64,000 nt of DNA, from NCBI RefSeq assembly GCF_020422885.1, contig NZ_CP084622.1, forward strand, positions 2,499,001 through 2,563,000, read 5' to 3'. A program made the position numbers and the translations under genes. The notes beneath the pieces were generated by a model. The model saw only the letters and a program-made list of their open reading frames with translations. It ran no database searches and was not told where the DNA came from. The stretch comes from Mesobacillus sp. S13 (GTDB taxonomy: Bacteria > Bacillota > Bacilli > Bacillales > Cytobacillaceae). This document shows positions 56,940-61,285 of the stretch, one piece after another (position 1 is the first letter of the stretch; each line of letters starts with the position of its first letter).

Positions 56940-57527
56940 ATGGCAATAAACGTAATAGTCATTATACTGGCATACTTGCTGGGATCAATACCTTCTGGCC
57001 TTATTATTGGAAAATTGTTCTACGGTAAAGATATTCGTGAACATGGAAGCGGGAACTTAGGCGGTACAAATACATTCAGGACACTGGGAGTAAAAGCTGG
57101 TTTAATAGTAAGTATCGCTGACGTGTTGAAAGGAACCCTTGCTGCAAGTCTGCCCTTGCTGCTAAATACGGATGATCTCCATATGCTTTTAGTAGGGGTC
57201 TTTGCGGTGATTGGACACATGTATCCTATCTTCGCAGGATTTCGAGGCGGTAAAGCGGTAGCCACTTCAGGTGGGGTTTTGCTGGCATATATTCCGGTAT
57301 TATTCATATTCATGCTCTTAATCTTTTTCATCAGCCTGTACATAACAAAGTATGTTTCCCTATCTTCCATTCTAACCGGCATTGCCGCGTTCATTTACTC
57401 GCTCTTTACCCAGGACCTCCCTTTGATCATGGTTGTCGCAGTCCTGGCCAGTTTCGTCATCTACAGGCATCGAGCCAATATTGAGAGAATCCGCAATAAA
57501 ACAGAGCCGAAAATCAAATGGCTTTAG
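56940..57527 (+). CDS. plsY: acyl-phosphate:glycerol-3-phosphate acyltransferase
   Basis: 195 residues with five membrane helices. [30 protein letters not shown] and [12 protein letters not shown] are the three PlsY motifs. It performs the first acylation in phospholipid synthesis. AAAAGGAGA precedes the ATG. A strong terminator follows. In B. subtilis the same gene (yneS) lies near yneR and yneT, as here. Confidence 0.95.
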
Positions 57528-59145: not shown

Positions 59146-59174
59146 TGCGGTCTCTTAAAGGACCGCATTTTTTT
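59146..59174. terminator. terminator between convergent genes
   Basis: TGCGGTC / GACCGCA perfect stem with an eight-base loop, T7 on the plus side and A-rich sequence on the other. Confidence 0.9.
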
Positions 59175-59184
59175 ACATATCGTA

Positions 59185-59472
59185 TCACATTTTTAACAGT
59201 TTGAACTGCCCCCTTCCCAAAACATCTTTTATATAATCTAGTTTCGTATCATTGAAATAAACGGAATCGCCTTCATGAATCAGGATGGGCACTCCATCGA
59301 ATGTATGAATTTGATCATTCTTTAATGGCTGCTCCTCCAGAGCAACTCGAAGCTGCGGGCCACCTCAACCGATCCCCATCGTCAACCGGACGTATAGCAT
59401 TTCCTCTTCCTTGCATTCATTTTTGATTGCCTGACGCAAAATTTTATGTGCGCTCTCGGTTATTTTGAACAA
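59185..59472 (-). CDS. HesB/IscA-like selenoprotein (in-frame UGA = Sec36, predicted)
   Basis: 95 codons from a TTG (59472), with AAAGGG nine bases upstream, to a TGA at 59185. Reading starts LFKITESAHKILRQAIKN, then reaches LTMGIG, a TGA at 59367-59365, and continues GGPQLRVALEEQ. It ends in VYFNDTKLDYIKDVLGRGQF. HesB/IscA proteins have a conserved Cys at the interrupted position. No other stop or frameshift is present, and a SECIS-like hairpin follows. If the UGA is only a stop, the product is 35 residues. A further in-frame TGA just upstream limits the start to this TTG. Confidence 0.8.
59322..59367 (-). promoter_or_regulatory. candidate bacterial SECIS element with the UGA codon
   Basis: After the UGA (59367-59365) come 25 nt and then an apical loop TGGAG. 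The loop is closed by TGCTC / GAGCA (59344-59330), with a further T-G pair. GGTGGC right after the UGA can also pair with GCCATT (59329-59324). A G is in the first two loop positions, and the distance is in the 16-37 nt range described for bacterial SECIS elements. Confidence 0.7.
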
Positions 59473-59649
59473 TACCTCTCACCCTTTCAAAGTTTCTGCC
59501 TTTAATCTACAATTTTAATGAAAATTATCGAATTATGACAAAATAATGAAAATCACAATGAAATTTATACATTTAACACCATTCTTATAATATATTATCC
59601 TTAGAGGCTAAAAAATAAATATGCCTCATTCTAATCTGGGGAGATTAAC

Positions 59650-60813
59650 ATGAGAAAAAAGAAGAAAAAACCTTTTGGTATTGCCTTGTTTGCAGGCTTA
59701 GGCATCTTGGCATCCGTATTAACTTTGCAGATGTACAATGAAGCACAAGCCAAAGAACCAAGCATTAAAATGAAATCTCAAAAGTCACATCTCGAGAGAA
59801 GCTATGATGTGACCGGTAAGAGTTTTGTGGAAACAGTGAAAATCGGAGCAATTGGTGATATCCTGATCCACGATACAGTTTATGAAGATGCATTTTTGAG
59901 TCCCGGCTACGATTTCAAACCAATGCTCAGTCATGTCAGAGAGTACTTATTGCAACCTGATCTTTTACTGGCGAACCAGGAAACTCTTCTTGGCGGAGAG
60001 GAAATCGGGTTATCAAGCTATCCAATGTTCAATAGTCCTGTTGAAGTTGGTGAGGCATTGATAGATGCCGGAGTGGATATTGTATCAAATGCAAATAATC
60101 ATTCTCTTGACCGCTCGGAAAAGGGGGTCCTCGCATCGTTAAGTAATATGGAAGCATCCGGCCTCCCTTACGTTGGTTCATTCAAGGATGATGCAGACAA
60201 ACAAGAATTGCGGATCTTGAACAAAAATGGGGTCAGCGTTTCCTATTTATCCTACACCTATGGAACAAATGGAATCCCAGTTCCAATCGGCAAGGATCAT
60301 CTCGTGAACCTGATTGATCGGGAAGCAATGAAAGCTGAGATTCACCGCGCCCGGACTGAATCAGATATTGTTGTCATGAGTATCCATTGGGGGAATGAGT
60401 ATCAACGCTTCCCTACTATTGATCAAAAGGAACTTGCCCAGTTTCTGGTCGATGAAGGCGTAGACATCATCTTTGGCCATCATCCGCATGTTTTGCAGCC
60501 TATGGAGTGGCTGACTGCTGCGGACGGAAGAAAGGCTTTTGTCGTCTATTCACTTGGTAATTTCCTGTCTGGCCAAATGTGGGACTATAAGGATATCGGT
60601 GGTCTTGCCACGATTGAAGTAACGAAAACCATCACACCGGAAGGCGATAAAATCGTGCTGCAAAACCCGGAATTCTTACCGACATTTGTCTCAAGTAGCA
60701 GACAAAGCAATTACCGTGTTGTTCCTTTGGAAGAAGCCGGCCAATTTGGCCTCGCTGGAGCAAAAAGTAAATATAACGAAATCATGGAACATATGACACA
60801 GTTTATTAAGTAG
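59650..60813 (+). CDS. CapA family protein
   Basis: 387 residues. An N-terminal lysine-rich segment and a membrane anchor (about 8-25) are followed by a calcineurin-like CapA domain. KIGAIGDILIHDTVYEDAF, NANNHSLDRSEKG, MSIHWGNEYQRFPT and IFGHHPHVLQPMEW carry the expected metal ligands. CapA proteins are associated with poly-gamma-glutamate synthesis or anchoring, but no capB or capC is nearby, so the role is open. It is exposed outside the membrane. Confidence 0.88.
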   Translation: MRKKKKKPFGIALFAGLGILASVLTLQMYNEAQAKEPSIKMKSQKSHLERSYDVTGKSFVETVKIGAIGDILIHDTVYEDAFLSPGYDFKPMLSHVREYLLQPDLLLANQETLLGGEEIGLSSYPMFNSPVEVGEALIDAGVDIVSNANNHSLDRSEKGVLASLSNMEASGLPYVGSFKDDADKQELRILNKNGVSVSYLSYTYGTNGIPVPIGKDHLVNLIDREAMKAEIHRARTESDIVVMSIHWGNEYQRFPTIDQKELAQFLVDEGVDIIFGHHPHVLQPMEWLTAADGRKAFVVYSLGNFLSGQMWDYKDIGGLATIEVTKTITPEGDKIVLQNPEFLPTFVSSSRQSNYRVVPLEEAGQFGLAGAKSKYNEIMEHMTQFIK

Positions 60814-60991: not shown

Positions 60992-61285
60992 ATGATAATT
61001 ACAATTAATGATGATGCTGCAGCATGGTATGAAAATGAAATGGACCTTTCATCCGGAAGCTATTTAAGATTTTTTGTCCGGTACGGGGGCTTCAGTTCCA
61101 TTCAGAAAGGTTTTTCATTAGGTGTATCGAAAGAAGAACCTGATCATATTGGTGTAAAAACAGAAAAGAATGGTGTCACTTATTATATCGAAGAAAAAGA
61201 TATTTGGTATTTTGATGGACATGATATGCACGTTGAACTTCACCCAGTTGGGCAGGAACCCGATTTTAAATTCGAGAAGAAGTAA
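60992..61285 (+). CDS. yneR: HesB/YadR/YfhF-family protein (YneR-like)
   Basis: 97 residues: IITINDDAAAWYENEMDL, FFVRYGGFSSIQKGFSLGVSKEEP and DIWYFDGHD match B. subtilis YneR. This branch of the HesB-like fold lacks the iron-sulphur cysteines, and none are present here. The function is unknown. AAAGGAG precedes the ATG. It contrasts with the Cys/Sec-containing HesB-like gene 1.5 kb upstream. Confidence 0.88.
   Translation: MIITINDDAAAWYENEMDLSSGSYLRFFVRYGGFSSIQKGFSLGVSKEEPDHIGVKTEKNGVTYYIEEKDIWYFDGHDMHVELHPVGQEPDFKFEKK

Follow-up and report, generated by a model that had tools for sequence, protein, structure and literature searches.

The 64-kb window analysed here corresponds to bases 2499001-2563000 of the single-contig 4.8 Mb genome of Mesobacillus sp. 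S13. On its minus strand it contains a small HesB/IscA-like reading frame interrupted by a TGA, which raises the question of whether this codon is a lesion, a genuine stop, or a position where selenocysteine (Sec) is inserted. The frame (59185..59472, minus strand) begins with TTG at 59472 and possesses one internal stop, the TGA at 59367-59365, which is codon 36. Read through, it translates as LFKITESAHKILRQAIKNECKEEEMLYVRLTMGIG, the TGA-encoded residue and GGPQLRVALEEQPLKNDQIHTFDGVPILIHEGDSVYFNDTKLDYIKDVLGRGQFKLLKM, a protein of 95 residues whose predicted Sec, residue 36 (59365..59367, minus strand), lies in the motif UGGP, a form of UxGP. The terminal stop, at 59187-59185, is a TGA too. 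The initial annotation, made from the sequence, had described one HesB/IscA-like frame broken only by this codon, and re-reading gave the same frame. Its claim of intact coding on both sides also holds, as the read-through frame matches Pfam PF01521 across both flanks of the TGA with 30.0 bits (gathering cut-off 26.3). The TTG start is backed by ATG or TTG at the equivalent position in members of the genus, and is preceded by a purine-rich, Shine-Dalgarno-like stretch, AAAGGGTGAGAGG (59475..59487, minus strand), similar in genus members.

The AlphaFold2 model of the 95-residue protein, built with a 32-row alignment, has a mean pLDDT of 94.7 and no residue below 70. Its best match among PDB structures is E. 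coli IscA (1r94, TM 0.82), followed by SufA, AQ_1857, HI1723 and DsrR. In a profile search of PDB sequences, the first conserved Cys (GC-G) of IscA, HI1723 and AQ_1857 aligned with the UGA codon. Sec is the sole conserved Cys/Sec residue of the window-type protein, and the C-terminal CxC is absent, with no Cys within the last 12 residues in 32/32 alignment rows. UxGP is given as the motif of HesB-like selenoproteins in the accessible passages of PMC13188914, and the window protein, with U-G-G-P, belongs to this group in the wide sense.

The initial annotation had made its reading depend on the presence of selA, selB, selC and selD in the genome, and all four were found above cut-off. The genes selA, selB and selD are encoded in the same single contig, with selA 13 kb past the window end, and the tRNA-Sec scored 67.1 bits (cut-off 47) and was identified by ARAGORN as tRNA-SeC with anticodon tca. 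The host selD has an in-frame TGA in the motif KAGUGCK, and one of the three host FdhA genes above the family cut-off contains an in-frame TGA as well. Because these two genes hold TGA, the host probably decodes UGA as Sec in other genes too. A frame resembling formate dehydrogenase (G000:C1:4685255-4686007, minus strand) also contains an in-frame TGA and gives split matches that stay below cut-off; it may be a further Sec gene or a decaying gene.

When the read-through protein was searched against 193 family genomes, 184 had a match at E 0.001, and in 147 of these E was <1e-15. All 147 genomes in the latter set have TGA at the site; 138 were seen in rows down to E 7.4e-22, and the other nine, searched again with the alignment, showed one TGA each. 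Among the 138 rows listed, an additional internal stop (TAA) was found only in G044. Decay of homologues through further stops had been named initially as evidence against a selenoprotein, and no general decay is observed. In 130 fetched loci, a pattern that also allowed Cys, Ser, Trp and Ala matched 124, with TGA in 124/124, and the six loci that it missed have TGA as well (L038 and L071 are the same gene). A DNA-pattern search that required TGA, and is hence blind to Cys forms, found at least 120 stretches, 80 of them among the matches listed. The residues on both sides of the UGA site include invariant ones. UGA forms also occur beyond the family, in 13 loci from eight further families of the class.

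The site was present in 137 of 140 loci scanned. Classified by the first site in each, 77 belong to clade 1, the window type, and 60 to clade 2, marked by a LEES motif; these counts include related loci and do not represent independent events. In the tree, clade 2 comes out as a single group (support 96/88). The tree, calculated from 95 columns, leaves many forks unresolved and shows YneR on a very long branch, and clade 1 was not recovered in it as a single group.

The gene follows the Sec machinery across the family. SelA was above cut-off in 172/193 family genomes, which contradicts the initial remark that Sec use is uncommon in Bacillus-type organisms and points to routine use of selenocysteine in Mesobacillus and its relatives. 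A 2006 count reported in the available text of PMC1794560 listed three selenoproteins in three families for Bacillales. Gene and selA occur together in 144 of the 193 genomes, the gene alone in 3, selA alone in 28, and neither in 18 (odds ratio 31, p 2.4e-10, with the kinship of genomes ignored). The 28 selA-positive genomes without the gene count against the selenoprotein reading. One of the genomes with the gene and without selA, G179, is an 81% complete assembly in which tRNA-Sec and a partial selB were above cut-off. Among the first 30 selA rows listed, 24 genomes carry a clade-1-type copy on the same contig at most 20 kb from selA. Of the remaining six, one lacks a copy, another has it 45 kb away, and the other four carry only clade-2 copies.

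Downstream of the UGA, a bacterial SECIS hairpin was predicted at 59328..59346 (minus strand), with 8 bp formed by GUUGCUCU and GGAGCAGC and a GGA apical loop. According to the excerpted text of PMC13188914, bacterial SECIS elements have a loop of 3-9 nt, an upper stem of 4-16 bp, a spacing of 16-37 nt, G in the first two loop positions, and a minimum free energy (MFE) of at most -7.5. The window hairpin agrees with four constraints of that text, with a loop of 3, a stem of 8 bp, a spacing of 26 nt from UGA to loop, and an MFE of -10.3 kcal/mol for nucleotides 16-45 counted from the start of the UGA. Taken alone, it is moderate against controls (z -1.8 for shuffles, -1.6 for recoding, and -0.5 for a wider stretch of 58 nt).

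The comparison among relatives is stronger. The alignment is gap-free from the TGA on and comprises 118 distinct 60-nt windows. Nucleotides 26-36 from the TGA are CTCTGGARGAG in 116/118. Codon 9 (Leu) is CTG in 118/118, compared with 20% of Leu codons in long ORFs of the window, and codon 11 is GAG in 117/118, compared with 29% of Glu codons; the reference frequencies were taken from 38 mechanically called ORFs with 250 codons or more, some of which are perhaps not genes. Codon 8 encodes Ser, Ala, Thr or Val, with T as third base in 118/118. The 4-bp upper stem is intact in 118/118, versus 6% under synonymous recoding, and the folding energy over the 118 windows has a mean z of -2.6 versus synonymous recoding. 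When all fetched loci were considered (177 distinct windows, selected by a protein motif covering the same stretch), codon 9 CTG and codon 11 GAG were found in 177/177, and CTCTGGARGAG in 172/177.

The lower stem occurs in two registers, one with a bulged U (85 distinct windows) and one with an unbroken 8-bp helix (33, including that of the window). A bulged U is also present in the stem of the E. coli fdhF SECIS. Among the 82 rows of the bulged-U register, pair 21-40 occurs mostly as G-C (40 rows) or U-A (40), and pair 22-39 as C-G (77) or U-A (5). Among the 32 rows of the 8-bp register, pair 22-40 occurs mostly as G-C (17) or C-G (14). Cells are paired at 99.5% and 99.6% in the two register alignments. 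None of 500 shuffles reached as high in either alignment for cells paired, cells changed on both sides, or covariation score, and sliding of the pairing partners destroys the pairing and covariation signal. Two other measures did not exceed shuffles: the number of pairs changed on both sides was equalled or surpassed in 19 and 420 of 500 shuffles, and that of further pair types in 171 and 79 of 500. The shuffles keep relatedness, and pairs 21-40 and 22-40 track clade-like amino-acid changes, so that independent events are fewer than cells.

Distant relatives with Cys at the site serve as a natural control. Cys forms of the RKSCFMK type (RKSCFMKVKLTLEE and similar) occur in six family genomes and in one genome from a different family (L302-L306, L312 and L165). 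They encode the residues equivalent to the hairpin as ACCTTGGAAGAA, ACATTGGAAGAA, ACCTTCGAAGAA, ACAGTGGAAAAT and similar. The CTCTGG motif is absent in 7/7 of them, and L302, the one Cys form folded, does not form the SECIS hairpin. The nucleotide constraint is therefore tied to the UGA and not to the protein sequence. In the tree, the four Cys forms included sit on a long branch among UGA forms; their joint group with clades 1 and 2 is supported at 96/84, and nearer forks are weak. Possibly, these Cys forms represent a Sec-to-Cys conversion with fast divergence. The initial annotation had stated that related proteins carry Cys, which is correct for distant IscA-type relatives, this divergent branch, and 1/91 database matches (P0071), but for no close relative examined. 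As to the alternation of Cys and UGA that it had proposed to look for, the tree places the divergent Cys branch among UGA forms, and the family matches at E <1e-15 are UGA throughout.

Together, the Sec genes, the conserved UGA, the SECIS with its compensatory changes, and the Cys forms devoid of the motif support the HesB-like selenoprotein with in-frame UGA proposed at the outset. The stretch 59472-59185 (minus strand) is very probably a functional selenoprotein gene, a judgement that covers the selenoprotein reading and not the function of the protein. The computation establishes the frame, the Sec machinery, the conserved UGA, the covarying SECIS and the fold; the actual Sec insertion and the function are inferred. 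SelB with Sec-tRNA(Sec) would bind the hairpin downstream of the UGA. The small HesB/IscA-fold protein would thereby receive selenocysteine as residue 36, where IscA has the first of its three cluster-binding cysteines.

HesB-like selenoproteins are already known; the Bacillaceae branch is poorly annotated so far. A database of 5.77 billion proteins gave 13 matches to the window protein and 91 to the alignment. Trp is present at the site in 67/91 matches, 64 of full length and three shortened. Since the full-length ones are all on contigs <6 kb, the Trp forms are probably products of gene calling with TGA read as Trp on short contigs. A further 22/91 matches are fragments that begin after the UGA (P0011, P0012, P0072 and P0074-P0092), in agreement with the initial expectation that standard gene calling would miss or split the gene. 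The single other residues at the site are Cys in P0071 and Arg in P0073. NCBI-named matches number 11, all post-UGA fragments; ten are named 'hypothetical protein' and one 'iron-sulfur cluster biosynthesis family protein'. A selenoprotein probably present in well over 100 Bacillaceae species appears in the searched database almost only in Trp-misread or shortened form. In openly licensed PMC text (titles, starts of abstracts, and passages), no description of the Bacillaceae branch was found.

The tested NCBI selenoprotein models do not recognise the branch. For TIGR01911 (HesB_rel_seleno), the window protein scored 21.0 bits (cut-off 66.35), and five of six relatives scored 17.0 to 27.2 bits, with L138 unlisted at E 0.01. 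For NF038090 (IscA_HesB_Se), it scored 31.3 bits (cut-off 85) and six relatives 29.9-50.2; this cut-off was reached in 0/398 genomes of the class, taken as Bacilli. Some copies may be annotated as Sec proteins in RefSeq at large. TGA followed by CTCTGGARGAG provides an annotation signature for the Bacillaceae branch. A distinct group of UGA-HesB proteins was observed in family f23 (L289, L290 and L292), with the motif IAGFGUGGPSLGLALDE and a Cys near the C-terminus; at 82.2-83.7 bits, it falls just short of the NF038090 threshold of 85.

Within the window, the gene stands alone. A promoter-like site, TTGTCA-18-TAAAAT, is located at 59512..59541 (minus strand) with 10/12 consensus matches; 11 consensus sites were counted in the region, this one included, versus 3.1 expected. 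The TTGTCA stretch of this site is conserved among genus members. The upstream alignment shows conservation within the genus, part of which belongs to the divergent neighbour gene (59650..60813, plus strand), which we take to be CapA-like. A strong, terminator-like hairpin (59146..59167, minus strand) of seven pairs with a T tail begins 17 nt past the stop; counted on both strands, 0.5 such sites were expected. This hairpin is probably the terminator of the HesB-like gene, and suggests a one-gene transcript. The Rfam scan of the 64-kb window gave no matches at the gathering threshold.

Clade 1 looks monocistronic. The five frequent neighbour clusters were found in 55, 50, 48, 46 and 40 of the 77 clade-1 loci within about 20 kb, defined by single linkage, and presumably correspond to PlsY-like, CapA-like, thioesterase-like, histidine kinase and YneR-like proteins, respectively. 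The first includes the syntenic anchor gene of the window at 56940..57527 (plus strand), and the second the divergent neighbour. A TlpA/ResA-like gene lies about 6 kb away in 20/77 loci. Genes of the TusA, DsrE and TauE cluster were not detected among the frequent neighbours in the 77 clade-1 loci. Of the 60 clade-2 loci, 36 have a TusA-type neighbour, 32 TauE, 25 TlpA/ResA-like, 21 DsrE-like and 15 CsoR-type, with family names taken from Pfam searches of members from L232 and L245.

Plasmid pBO1 of Cytobacillus oceanisediminis 2691 carries such a clade-2 locus, with the gene order TusA, TauE, two DsrE_2, the HesB gene, rhodanese, a familyless protein, DsbD_TM/CcdA, a ResA-like redoxin, and a TehB-like methyltransferase. 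The gene table of pBO1, which omits pseudogenes, leaves the HesB site, between the rhodanese and DsrE-type genes, as a gap with no CDS. Two genomes, G171 and G175, have a clade-2 UGA gene without selA, selB or tRNA-Sec above cut-off; the selA search gave a single match at E 7.5e-4 in G171 and none in G175. The G171-type copy (Bacillus sp. B1-b2 record) is 99.98% identical to pBO1 over 6.2 kb, and the G175 copy is 100% identical over 3.3 kb, the whole stretch fetched. Because the surrounding DNA is near-identical to pBO1, both copies are probably recent arrivals. Here, the UGA presumably halts translation. Since these Sec-minus genomes keep the UGA gene, retention of the UGA is not in every host a sign of Sec insertion, and a recoded gene stranded in two such hosts represents a natural experiment on its fate. 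Near-identical clade-2 loci of the pBO1 type were observed at L052, L053, L054, L204 and L232 (G171, G175 and G048; plasmid pBO1).

These observations bear on other explanations of the TGA. It might be a nonsense mutation in a decaying frame, since callers split the gene into the post-UGA fragments seen in 22/91 matches, the clade-2 copy on pBO1 has no listed CDS, and two Sec-minus genomes carry a clade-2 copy. However, TGA is present in 147/147 positive genomes with a conserved downstream frame, and a pseudogene accounts neither for the RNA covariation nor for the synonymous constraint. At the level of the family, conserved frame and hairpin refute a pseudogene, which we regard as very improbable. 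The same 22 C-terminal fragments would fit an internal start or two small proteins, with the C-terminal half as product and the UGA as genuine stop. The AlphaFold2 model, one confident domain across the site, the invariant residues that flank the UGA on both sides, and the hairpin, which lies within SECIS range of the UGA and whose motif is missing from the Cys forms, led us to reject this reading, just as improbable as the pseudogene.

The least probable alternative is that a near-cognate tRNA, for Trp or Cys, reads the UGA. Trp at the site in 67/91 matches would point in this direction, though these most probably derive from gene calling with TGA as Trp on short contigs. The gene co-occurs with selA, the SECIS is conserved, the genome has the Sec machinery, and TGA also terminates the same gene; on these grounds, near-cognate read-through was rejected.

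Regarding function, A-type iron-sulfur carriers have three cluster-binding Cys, two of them in a C-terminal CxC. The window-type protein lacks this arrangement; four ErpA-like rows (L167, L168, L291 and L307) do carry CGCG. With no conserved Cys/Sec residue besides Sec and no CxC tail, the window protein is unlikely to be an ordinary A-type carrier that transfers clusters. The favoured proposal, at somewhat less than even probability, is that the selenolate handles a metal ion or else sulfur or selenium in reduced form (persulfide, selenide). Persulfide or selenide handling is proposed because the clade-2 paralogues stand among TusA, DsrE, rhodanese and TauE genes, and its extension to clade 1, with the window gene, is a guess from homology. 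A broader and rather unlikely scheme is that the large, Sec-preferring Bacillaceae branch forms a sulfur/selenium relay and not an iron-sulfur assembly system. In such a relay, the lone selenolate would take persulfide sulfur or selenide; clade 2 would belong to a mobile TusA-DsrE-rhodanese-TauE module that reaches hosts unable to decode UGA, and clade 1 would be a housekeeping form that may feed SelD.

The window protein was compared with known relatives. Similar to the HesB-like selenoproteins of TIGR01911 and NF038090, it has PF01521 homology, UGA at the first Cys position, and UxGP, but it scores far under both curated cut-offs. A HesB-like selenoprotein of Methanococcus maripaludis is said, in the accessible part of PMC11097638, to have been identified via mutagenesis and 75Se labelling, with unclear function. 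The Bacillaceae branch makes the function of HesB-like selenoproteins testable in easily grown bacteria instead of methanogens. With the IscA, SufA and ErpA carriers, the protein shares the fold (1r94, TM 0.82; SufA 2d2a) and the alignment of Sec with the first conserved Cys, which UGA replaces, whereas the C-terminal Cys pair is absent.

DsrR of Allochromatium vinosum (2k4z) has the IscA-type fold as well (TM 0.77, 21.1 bits). It belongs to a dsr operon and its cluster cysteines are missing, and the clade-2 paralogues of the window gene stand among DsrE, TusA and rhodanese genes; unlike the window protein, DsrR has no selenocysteine. YneR/PdhI of Bacillus subtilis (9a4q) also has the HesB fold (TM 0.54), and is reported as a pyruvate dehydrogenase inhibitor in the available text of PMC10090944. 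The window encodes a second HesB-fold gene at 60992..61285 (plus strand; PF01521 29.2 bits), a relative of which is present in 40/77 clade-1 loci. Its product, which we take to be YneR/PdhI-like, differs from the selenoprotein in having no Cys or Sec residue at the site. This gene sits about 1.5 kb from the selenoprotein gene.
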